A stretch of DNA of 64,000 bases. Source: Pelagibacteraceae bacterium AG-470-E16. Lineage in GTDB: Bacteria; Pseudomonadota; Alphaproteobacteria; Pelagibacterales; Pelagibacteraceae. The translations under genes and the position numbers were made by a program. Below the pieces are notes generated by a model. It saw only the letters and a list, made by a program, of their open reading frames with translations, was not told the origin of the DNA and did no database searches. The stretch is from NCBI GenBank assembly GCA_003209195.1, contig QCSF01000001.1, positions 1 through 64,000 on the forward strand, given 5' to 3'. Each line of letters begins with the position of its first letter. Position 1 is the stretch's first letter. This document shows positions 60,444 to 63,868 of the stretch, piece after piece.

Positions 60444-61076
60444 ATGTGCGGCCGCTATTCAATTACTAAAGTAGTGAAAAAAACAAAAAACATCGTTGAA
60501 AATAATGAAGGTGTTCAGGATATAGAAAATTATAATGCATATCCAACCCAGCAGCTTCCAATAATTAAAAAAAATGAAGATAGTTTAACTTTGGCTAATT
60601 ATAATTGGGGACTGGTTCCGAAATGGTCTGAAAAAATAACAGATTTTAGGCCTCTTAATAATGCTAGGTTAGAGACATTAACGGAAAAAAGAACTTTTAG
60701 TGGTTTAATTAAGAATCAAAGATGTCTAATTCCCGCCGATGGTTATTATGAATGGAGAAAAAATGATGAAGGAAAAAAAATTCCATATTTTTTGAGACGT
60801 GAAGATAGTGAAACACTTTTTTTTGCCGGTATTTATCAAAAAAACAATAATCTTGAATTTTCTATTATAACTACAGGAGCCACAGGCGATATTTTAAATA
60901 TTCATCATCGTATGCCGGTTATTTTAAAAGAAGTAGAAATTAACAATTATTTATACTCGAAAGATCCAATGACATTTTTAAATATCCATCAAAATCCAAA
61001 AATGGTGTTTTATGAAGTAGGTAGAGATGTCAATAATCCATCTAATAATTATATTAATCTTTTAGATCCAGCATAA
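60444..61076 (+). CDS. SRAP-domain protein (YedK/HMCES family)
   Basis: 210 residues starting MCGRYSIT: Cys2, exposed after Met removal, forms the covalent crosslink to abasic sites in single-stranded DNA. NARLETLTEKRTF, IPADGYYEWRK and IHHRMPVILK carry the Asn, Glu and His of the active site. Shields or processes abasic sites. Its stop (TAA 61074-61076) overlaps the T-run of the convergent ncRNA terminator by two bases. Confidence 0.92.
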   Translation: MCGRYSITKVVKKTKNIVENNEGVQDIENYNAYPTQQLPIIKKNEDSLTLANYNWGLVPKWSEKITDFRPLNNARLETLTEKRTFSGLIKNQRCLIPADGYYEWRKNDEGKKIPYFLRREDSETLFFAGIYQKNNNLEFSIITTGATGDILNIHHRMPVILKEVEINNYLYSKDPMTFLNIHQNPKMVFYEVGRDVNNPSNNYINLLDPA

Positions 61077-61265
61077 AAAAAAACTCCGCTAATAACTATT
61101 CCGAGGAACAATTAATGCGGAGCTTTAGTTGCCGTGTGATTTAAGCACTACTCCCACAGCGTACTTAGAGGCGTCGAAGTGCTACCTTCCCTCTACTTTC
61201 ACCACCAAGCAATCAGCCGAAACTTACTTCTTGATGAGTGCTAAAAGCTTACGCTCTTAGTTAAA
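61075..61265 (-). ncRNA. Structured non-coding RNA with strong terminator, unassigned
   Basis: A roughly 190-base, GC-rich island between convergent genes with no useful ORF. On the minus strand it folds as successive hairpins: CTAAGAGC-GTAA-GCTTTTAG (GNRA loop); CAC(T)CATCAAG with CTTGGTGGTG; TAGAGG with CCTCTA enclosing GAAG/CTTC; GCTGTG with CACGGC; then a terminator CTCCGC...GCGGAG plus nine T. Two TAGCACT copies can each pair with AGTGCT, and AGCGTA with TACGCT, suggesting pseudoknots. A -10-like TATAGT lies about 22 bases before the first hairpin. I could not match it to tmRNA, 6S, RNase P, SRP or a riboswitch. Confidence 0.7.
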
Positions 61266-61341
61266 AACAAATTACTATAAACATCAAATTAACGATATCT
61301 CCGTATAGTTGATTTTTTAATTGGTCTGTGAAAAGTGTGGA

Positions 61342-61785
61342 TTATTTTTTTCTTCGAAAATACCATGGATATTGAAAATCCATCGACCATAACCCTAGCC
61401 TTTTTTCTTTTGCATAATTTTCATCCTCAACGAATTTTTTTGAATATTTTCTGTAAGCAAAAGCATATCCATTTTTAACAAGATACTTTGATAAACTTTC
61501 ATTATTGACGTAACATTCCGCAACCACTCTTTTATAGCGATCAACAGCTTTCTTTTGACAGTTTACTTTTTTTTTTCCAATTTTTTCAATTAATTTTTTT
61601 TTTGATAATTCTCCACATTTAATGTGTATATTGTTGTGTATACACGTTTGAGACAATTCTGGTGCATCGATACCGTGGAAACGATATTTAATTTTAGCAA
61701 TATGAATTGTGTCACCATCAATAATTTTAATATTTTGGGCATTAAGTAAAGATGGTAAAAAGAAAAATAAAAAAAAGTATTTCAT
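61342..61785 (-). CDS. Secreted staphylococcal-nuclease-like protein
   Basis: 147 residues with signal peptide (MKYFFLFFFLPSLLNA). SNase signature: IIDGDTIHI, YRFHGIDAPELSQT and DRYKRVVAECYV supply the Asp, Arg and Glu site. It probably degrades extracellular or periplasmic nucleic acids, useful for scavenging phosphorus. It starts one base after the transglycosylase stop. Confidence 0.88.
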   Translation of the reverse strand: MKYFFLFFFLPSLLNAQNIKIIDGDTIHIAKIKYRFHGIDAPELSQTCIHNNIHIKCGELSKKKLIEKIGKKKVNCQKKAVDRYKRVVAECYVNNESLSKYLVKNGYAFAYRKYSKKFVEDENYAKEKRLGLWSMDFQYPWYFRRKK

Positions 61786-62373
61786 TTAAAAAATGATATA
61801 CCTTTTTATGTTTAACTTTGATTGGCATCTTTGAATTTGCAAACGATATTTTTTTGCAGTTTTTGCAACCGTTTTTGCATATGGAATTGACTCTGGTCTA
61901 GTCTTATTTGTCCATCCATTGTAATAATATAGATATTGTTTAAAATAATTTTTTTTGGATACTCTCATTTTTCTTGAAGTTTGATCAACATACCAACCAA
62001 CAAAATCTGAAGCATCTTTAAACAAAACTCTTGTTACATATTTTTTTCCAGTACTTTTTTTATAAACTTCCCATGTATCCTCTATAGCTTGGGAATAACC
62101 TAACGAACTTGATTTTCTTTTCCAAGGAATAACCTTGAATAACTTTGTTCTTTCAGGTCTAGCAAGCCAATCATATCCACTTTCTTTTTTTATAATAGCC
62201 ATTTGTAACTCAATTGGCGCTCCCCACTTTCTTTGAGAGGCATTTGCAAACTTGTACCATAAATATTTTTCATTAAATATAGCGCATGCATTAACAGTGT
62301 TTTTTGGAATAGAACTGCAGGCAAAAATGAAAAAAAACGACAAAAATAAAAAATTTTTTTTTAACTGATTCAT
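61786..62373 (-). CDS. Lipoprotein lytic transglycosylase-like protein
   Basis: 195 residues with lipobox IFACSS at the end of the signal. The SLT-like core has IIKKESGYDW, with the catalytic Glu, then SSLGYSQAIEDTW and a C-terminal FVGWYVDQTSRKMRVS, KQYLYYYNGWTNK. Cleaves or remodels peptidoglycan. Upstream of the nuclease gene, likely the same transcript. Confidence 0.8.
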   Translation of the reverse strand: MNQLKKNFLFLSFFFIFACSSIPKNTVNACAIFNEKYLWYKFANASQRKWGAPIELQMAIIKKESGYDWLARPERTKLFKVIPWKRKSSSLGYSQAIEDTWEVYKKSTGKKYVTRVLFKDASDFVGWYVDQTSRKMRVSKKNYFKQYLYYYNGWTNKTRPESIPYAKTVAKTAKKYRLQIQRCQSKLNIKRYIIF

Positions 62374-62413
62374 TAAATGATATAATAAAATACAATTTAT
62401 ATGAGTAAAGAAA

Positions 62414-63868
62414 ATGATAGAAAAACTAGGATTTAATTTTGAAAATACTTACGCCAGTTTGCCTGAAATTATGGCAACGAAAATATCTCCTACTACAGTA
62501 AAAAAACCAGAATTAGTAATTTTAAATCAGACATTAGCTAATTCTTTAGGACTTGATTTCTCTAAAGTTTCGGATAATCAAAGTGCAGAAATATTATCTG
62601 GAAATAAACTTATCAAAGGTTCTATTCCACTAGCACAAGCTTATTGCGGTCATCAATTTGGTAGCTTTGTTATGCTAGGAGATGGGAGAGCCATTTTATT
62701 AGGAGAACACTTAGACTCAAAAAAACAAAGATGGGATATACAATTAAAAGGTTCTGGTAAAACACCTTACTCTAGGGGGGGGGATGGTCGAGCTGCATTA
62801 AGTCCTATGCTTAGGGAATATATTATTAGTGAAGCAATTCATTTTATGAATATTCCGACAACAAGGAGTTTAGCAGTTGTTAAGACAGGTGAGGATGTGT
62901 TGAGAGAAACTTTACAACAAGGAGCAGTTTTAACACGTATTGCTTCCTCTCATTTACGAGTAGGCACATTTCAATATATTGCTTCAAAACAAGATATAAC
63001 TACACTTAAAACTTTAGTTAATTATTCTATTGAGCGTCATTATCCAGAATTATTTCAAGCACAAAATAAAGCAATTGCGTTGTTTAACTCTGTAATGAAA
63101 AGACAAATAAAACTTATAGTAAATTGGATGCGTGTTTCTTTTATTCATGGTGTAATGAATACAGATAATATGTCAATTTCAGGTGAAAGTATTGATTATG
63201 GCCCATGCGCGTTCATGGATCACTATGATGCCAAAACGGTATTCAGTTCTATAGATCACTATGGTCGTTACGCATTTGGTAGTCAACCAATTATTGGACA
63301 ATGGAATTTAGCAAGATTTCTAGAAAGTCTATTTCCTCTTCTCGATCGAAATGAAAAAAAAGCTGAAAAAATCGCCAATGTATTGATCAAAAAATATGAA
63401 AATTTGTTTGCTGAGGAATATCATCAGATGATGAAAAATAAACTAGGTATGATTTCAGATGAAGATCAAGATAAAAATATGATGAGTGATTTATTTAAAA
63501 TGATGCATAAAAATCAAGCCGATTACAATAATACATTTAGGTATTTGATTAATGGAAAATTCCCACAAGGAAAACTTCTAAATGATCCAGACTTTATTAT
63601 TTGGGAAGCGCAGTGGAAAAAACGTCTGTCTAAAAATCAAAATAGTGAGGACGCTTATCAATTAATGATGAAACATAATCCTGTATTTATTCCAAGAAAT
63701 CATAAGGTTGAGCAAGCGCTAGCAGCAGCGGATAAAGGTGATATGTCAAAATTTTTATCTTTGTATGAGGTTATCACAAAGCCTTATGTTGAAAATGCCG
63801 ATCTTGAAGAATACGCAAAACCTGCTCCGGCATCAGATCGTGTATATAAAACATATTGCGGAACTTAG
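62414..63868 (+). CDS. selO: Protein adenylyltransferase SelO
   Basis: 484-residue pseudokinase-fold enzyme that transfers AMP to protein hydroxyls. LGDGRAILLGE, QLKGSGKTPYSRGGDGR, REYIISEAIHFM and FIHGVMNTDNMSISGESIDYGPCAFMD are the conserved segments. Length is normal and it ends YKTYCGT, matching the usual Cys-containing C-terminus. Linked to redox stress response. A short Lys-rich ORF follows after 21 bases. Confidence 0.93.
   Translation: MIEKLGFNFENTYASLPEIMATKISPTTVKKPELVILNQTLANSLGLDFSKVSDNQSAEILSGNKLIKGSIPLAQAYCGHQFGSFVMLGDGRAILLGEHLDSKKQRWDIQLKGSGKTPYSRGGDGRAALSPMLREYIISEAIHFMNIPTTRSLAVVKTGEDVLRETLQQGAVLTRIASSHLRVGTFQYIASKQDITTLKTLVNYSIERHYPELFQAQNKAIALFNSVMKRQIKLIVNWMRVSFIHGVMNTDNMSISGESIDYGPCAFMDHYDAKTVFSSIDHYGRYAFGSQPIIGQWNLARFLESLFPLLDRNEKKAEKIANVLIKKYENLFAEEYHQMMKNKLGMISDEDQDKNMMSDLFKMMHKNQADYNNTFRYLINGKFPQGKLLNDPDFIIWEAQWKKRLSKNQNSEDAYQLMMKHNPVFIPRNHKVEQALAAADKGDMSKFLSLYEVITKPYVENADLEEYAKPAPASDRVYKTYCGT

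Follow-up and report, generated by a model that had tools for sequence, protein, structure and literature searches.

A diverged member of the orphan IMES-2 RNA family in a SAR11 genome, with a predicted loop-loop kissing core and a putative control site

A minus-strand RNA gene encoded in a 64,000-nucleotide stretch of the genome of Pelagibacteraceae bacterium AG-470-E16 (hereafter, the window) was identified by cmscan as a member of the Rfam family IMES-2 (RF02035). The match, at 61129-61267, was the only Rfam match in the window and covers all of model positions 1-141, that is, the full length of the model. It scores 74.5 bits against a curated gathering cut-off of 54.7 (E = 6.8e-17), compared with 114-163 bits for most IMES-2 members. 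The feature is, with near certainty, the SAR11 IMES-2 RNA gene, and its product is a new, diverged member of an already catalogued orphan RNA family. The original prediction for this region had left the RNA unassigned while accepting that a significant Rfam hit would make it a known RNA, and the Rfam search that it proposed returned such a hit. Its second suggestion, a highly diverged known RNA, came nearer the truth. It was also correct in setting the RNA apart from tmRNA, 6S, RNase P and SRP RNA. No tmRNA was found in the window by ARAGORN or by Rfam match, and 6S RNA (RF00013) was matched nowhere in the window at the gathering cut-off, nor in the RNA region at E values up to 10. The name IMES-2 refers to marine environmental sequences. 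To our knowledge, the family has been catalogued for years without a known function, and a search of the open literature that did not take in the original motif description returned no paper on its function. Taken as a whole, the observations reported here are best explained by an IMES-2 gene of SAR11 that is controlled by an activator and encodes a trans-acting, protein-binding RNA with a kissing core, an explanation to which we give an even chance.

The RNA and its structural elements are as follows, in window coordinates.

61129-61267, minus strand: IMES-2 RNA (RF02035 match, positions 1-141); the predicted transcript, terminator included, is ~190 nt
61241-61260, minus strand: hairpin 1, 8 bp with a GUAA (GNRA) tetraloop, from the fold and covariation
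61200-61240, minus strand: hairpin 2, a long stem with an internal loop, from covariation and the alignment
61197-61199, minus strand: invariant AAA linker, which reads GAAA in 47 of 47 homologues when the G that closes hairpin 2 is included
61164-61196, minus strand: hairpin 3 with a kissing loop, from covariation
61178-61182, minus strand: loop 3 kissing strand GCACU, Watson-Crick with loop 4, from covariation
61131-61160, minus strand: hairpin 4, likewise with a kissing loop, and with a non-canonical G-A pair that is conserved, from covariation
61145-61149, minus strand: loop 4 kissing strand AGUGC, Watson-Crick with loop 3, from covariation
61075-61126, minus strand: intrinsic terminator, a long hairpin with a run of nine T (61083-61075) after it, from the fold

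A GC-rich island with a GUAA hairpin, four hairpins and a nine-T terminator had been predicted, and all of these are present in the minus-strand RNA. GC content is 44.6% in the RNA. In 61075-61267 it is 42.0%, against 29.3% for the window, and only 0.9% of window segments of that length (193 nt) are as GC-rich. The minus strand of this segment folds with -65.6 kcal/mol (z = -4.4 versus shuffles). The proposed search for covarying homologues was likewise productive: 47 sequences were aligned, and their shared structure has four consecutive consensus hairpins and 39 pairs, kissing pairs included. These pairs are formed in 93% of cells, and 30 of them show compensatory changes; none of 500 shuffles was as good, and slid controls gave 31-40%. 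The helix of hairpin 1 is 100% paired in the 47 homologues, with compensatory changes in four of six counted pairs. Hairpin 2 is 95.6% paired (compensatory changes in 9 of 11 pairs), and its apex is UUCG in the window and GAGA (GNRA) in most relatives. The two segments of hairpin 3 are paired in 83.7% and 72.3% of cells, every pair showing compensatory changes. Hairpin 4 is 98.9% paired, with compensatory changes in seven of eight pairs, and its non-canonical G-A pair is replaced by A-G in 5 of 47 sequences.

Loops 3 and 4 carry the UAGCGCU-like motif of the family, here as the covarying variant UAGCACU/UAGUGCU, and the covariation makes it almost certain that they pair with each other. All 235 cells of the five-pair kissing helix are Watson-Crick in the 47 homologues, including 25 double-change cells. 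Its two central pairs covary (C-G/U-A/A-U and G-C/A-U/U-A), which yields six loop combinations (CG/CG, CA/UG, UG/CA, UA/UA, AA/UU, and UU/AA), and they changed at least five and at least six times on a tree built without the loop columns. When every pair of columns was scored without prior selection, they came 2nd and 9th, ahead of all other pairs outside the hairpins. Columns 91-134 would give a sixth pair between the loops, but only 17 of 47 sequences form it. Of the alternative pairings in the original prediction, that of TAGCACT (61178-61184) with AGTGCT (61144-61149) is this contact and is kept by covariation; pairing by the other TAGCACT copy (61237-61243) and by AGCGTA with TACGCT did not hold up, being found in 26% and 53% of cells, respectively. 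Both loops open with GUAG (46/47 and 47/47), probably a U-turn-like start of the UNR type; in loop 3 of the window, this U-turn-like UAG (61184-61182) precedes the kissing strand. Duplicate target-binding loops were considered and rejected, as the two loops remain complementary, not identical.

Because self-pairing of either loop is impossible in the non-palindromic types, what is constrained is the match of loop 3 to loop 4. Covariation by itself reads the same for contacts in cis and for contacts in trans between two copies of the RNA, and we consider it probable that the kissing occurs inside one molecule. Pairing between two copies, with IMES-2 acting as a dimer or higher assembly, would suit the palindromic loop cores of many members (AGCGCU and AGUACU), but the CA/UG, UG/CA, AA/UU, and UU/AA loops are not self-complementary, which makes a like-with-like loop dimer impossible and allows only loop 3-loop 4 contacts. 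The two hairpins are moreover adjacent and joined by a short linker, favoring intramolecular pairing, and we judge the dimer rather unlikely.

Upstream of the RNA lie three conserved elements.

61274-61279, minus strand: -10-like box TATAGT, upstream of the RNA and separated by 6 nt from its position 1
61296-61301, minus strand: -35-region box GAGATA (GNGAT), conserved in homologues
61327-61344, minus strand: upstream element TAATCCACACTTTTCACA, consensus YWATYCAC-N5-TMACA, a putative activator site

The -10-like box, already noticed in the original prediction, has a counterpart (a -10-like hexamer with two or fewer mismatches) at the equivalent place in 42 of 52 homologues. The GNGAT motif occurs at -37 to -28 in 52 of the 52 homologues that have sequence there, and the -35-region box is preceded by a conserved AATCAACTA (61314-61306). 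The upstream element is exact in 35 of 52 homologues and within one mismatch in 47, compared with 0 and 1 of 1726 control windows. It is spaced from the -35 box by 41-43 bp in 32 sequences and by 49-53 bp in 15, and no intermediate spacing occurs, although related sequences inherit their spacing and these groups reflect few independent events. The two groups differ by ~10 bp, roughly one helical turn, which suggests an activator that has to bind on one face of the DNA.

Since the first half of the upstream element resembles the DnaA box TTATCCACA, a replication origin was considered and rejected: exact TTATCCACA boxes are unclustered, and IMES-2 lies off the GC-skew minimum in two complete genomes (by a coarse, sampled skew). 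At the other end of the gene, the terminator alone folds with -23 kcal/mol (z = -7.1). The span of the original prediction reached farther 3' than the Rfam match and rightly took in this terminator, which the Rfam model does not include. In other clades, comparably strong hairpins of clade-specific sequence follow where the conserved part of the RNA ends, and most of them have a T-rich tail. A consensus scanner, whose stem and box rules are unfit for these elements, reported no terminator or promoter on the minus strand. As read from the sequence, the IMES-2 gene is a cassette of promoter-like boxes, RNA and clade-variable terminator.

Two protein-coding genes flank the cassette in the window.

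60444-61076, plus strand: SRAP/YedK-family gene (PF02586, E = 3.5e-54), facing the RNA and outside the RNA gene
61342-61785, minus strand: SNase-family gene (PF00565, E = 1.2e-18), upstream of and co-directional with the RNA and outside the RNA gene

The RNA had been placed between convergent genes, which proved wrong on one side: only the SRAP gene faces it. Its reading as an independent minus-strand RNA and not a leader was borne out. In the window, the RNA is followed by its terminator and then a facing gene, an arrangement that does not fit a cis leader or riboswitch. IMES-2 lies between SNase and facing SRAP genes in the genus of the window. Naming neighbors by sequence resemblance, mnmA is upstream in g2, g3, g5, g7, g9, and g10; SelO adjoins it, facing away, in g8; and in g4 a recombinase-like gene faces away and an ogt-like gene lies downstream. 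Having different neighbors in different clades, IMES-2 cannot be the leader of any single gene. It is hardly credible that the region is a mere terminator with chance structure or a cis element of a neighboring gene. Its short intergenic position and the overlap of its T tract with the stop codon of the SRAP gene would fit such an element, but the covariance-model match is full, compensatory changes are broad, neighbors vary by clade, and the RNA has its own promoter region; chance structure is contradicted by the covariation.

A comparison of two complete genomes, G046 and G010, shows the cassette present in the former, flanked by a small ORF and an ogt-like gene, and cleanly absent from the latter, where the counterpart of this ORF directly adjoins the ogt-like gene. 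From this contrast, the cassette looks to have been gained or lost as one unit. In three g4 loci (L181, L186, and L187), IMES-2 lies beside recombinase-like genes with sugar-transfer-like genes close by, an arrangement that recalls a variable island, and the IMES-2 gene could serve as an integration site there. SelO is near IMES-2 both in the genus of the window (two genes away; window 61342-63868) and in g8 (adjacent; L189), and this linkage may predate the intervening SNase and SLT genes. A phage origin was also considered and rejected; no pattern match was found in viral contigs (with a pattern that fits the main type only, not the subtype of the window), and one main-type member had no match in phage records.

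The Rfam model found IMES-2 in 53 of 148 relatives, with one copy each. With model R1, built in the present analysis from 47 IMES-2 sequences, it turned up in 201 of the 397 genomes searched from the order, as a single copy in nearly all of them. Two matches to R1 were listed for genome G248, the sole such case among the 201. In a class-wide sample of 385 genomes, only three had a match, all from the genus of the window, and none was seen in the sampled Alphaproteobacteria outside the SAR11 order. IMES-2 is an RNA of marine bacteria found in several genomic contexts, confined to SAR11 in the samples searched, and lineage-specific, as the original prediction had supposed. The copy in the window belongs to a diverged subtype common to its genus and the sister g8, in which hairpin 2 is four bases shorter and the loops are AGCACU/AGUGCU; within this subtype, the genus of the window has a longer hairpin 1. 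The cassette is missing from about half of the genomes, complete ones included, which indicates a dispensable role. Weak R1 hits inspected in IMES-2-free genomes resembled coding sequence without the promoter module and revealed no hidden homologues.

In the explanation that we favor, a single promoter would give a transcript running from about 61267 to the intrinsic terminator at about 61075, both ends being predicted from these sites. The folded transcript would begin at its 5' end with a hairpin capped by a GNRA loop, followed by the long hairpin 2 and by hairpins 3 and 4 side by side; five Watson-Crick pairs between the loops of these last two would make the core compact and stable. A putative activator, bound at the conserved upstream element and so always on one face of the DNA helix, would control transcription. 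IMES-2 would act in trans on a protein partner, its presumed target, to which it would present the kissing-loop core together with the invariant GAAA and GUAG; it would be neither an antisense RNA nor a cis leader. For IMES-2 as a protein-binding trans regulator, we put the chance a little below even. Regulation independent of Hfq is the best reading. Hfq (PF17209) was found in none of the 142 nearer SAR11 relatives (G000-G141) and in all six outgroup genomes of the class, which does not fit an Hfq-dependent small RNA.

A trans-acting antisense small RNA would instead pair with mRNAs near their start codons, through its U-turn-like loops or another exposed stretch, with the loop-loop contact as the off state. 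Independent transcription with a terminator is the usual build of small RNAs, and UNR starts of the U-turn type, as suggested by the GUAG that opens both IMES-2 loops, speed RNA-RNA recognition in antisense systems. However, the central loop dinucleotides vary by lineage while the complementarity of loop 3 to loop 4 is always kept, and complementary 8-mers show no excess at gene starts (28 versus 36 in the control for 465 ORFs and 11 versus 25.5 for 375 ORFs). The absence of Hfq, together with this lack of seed-site enrichment, makes an antisense role less likely; a few specific mRNA targets would still be compatible with the data. Overall, we consider the antisense role unlikely.

We also weighed whether IMES-2 could take the place of 6S RNA in SAR11 and bind RNA polymerase. 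6S RNA (RF00013) was found in none of the SAR11 relatives G000-G141, nor in 14 SAR11 genomes searched with laxer filters, and five of six outgroup genomes have one; IMES-2 also resembles it in length and in stand-alone transcription. On the other hand, IMES-2 has no match to the 6S model, its four serial hairpins and kissing pair are not a long rod with a central bubble, and its patchy occurrence, with about half of SAR11 genomes lacking it, is unlike that of a core polymerase regulator. We regard this role as very unlikely.

SAR11 are among the most abundant bacterial groups of the ocean and are generally described as regulator-poor. In the boldest form of this regulatory role, IMES-2 would regulate SAR11 globally and without Hfq, and a dedicated activator (perhaps DnaA, or a different protein that binds the TTATCCACA-like site) would turn it on; its function would rest on a previously undescribed kissing-loop core. 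We offer this as a speculation with a small chance of being right. If it is true, IMES-2 would be among the few dedicated regulatory RNAs of a lineage without Hfq or recognizable 6S RNA. The proposed transcript ends, kissing core and control site, with the natural presence/absence genome pair, make the role of IMES-2 testable in cultured strains.

Compared with the IMES-2 motif RF02035, the RNA in the window has the same four hairpins in the same order, a GNRA loop on hairpin 1, two loops with the UAGCGCU-like motif and the CCAA/GCAA 3' end. It differs in its 8-bp hairpin 1 with GUAA, in a hairpin 2 that has a UUCG apex and is 4 nt shorter, and in its AGCACU/AGUGCU loops, which are AGCGCU/AGCGC in the motif. 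The structure line from the Rfam search shows no kissing pair. The kissing contact, the control site, the terminator and the distribution are results of the present analysis; we make no claim on the novelty of the contact relative to the Rfam seed or the original paper. Among known kissing-loop RNAs are the purine riboswitches and the antisense pairs of the RNAI/RNAII type. IMES-2 differs from these in leading no single gene and in having both loops in one transcript, with no separate partner RNA found. Like them, it has Watson-Crick pairing between two hairpin loops, and the UNR U-turn-like starts of its loops recall those of antisense kissing loops.
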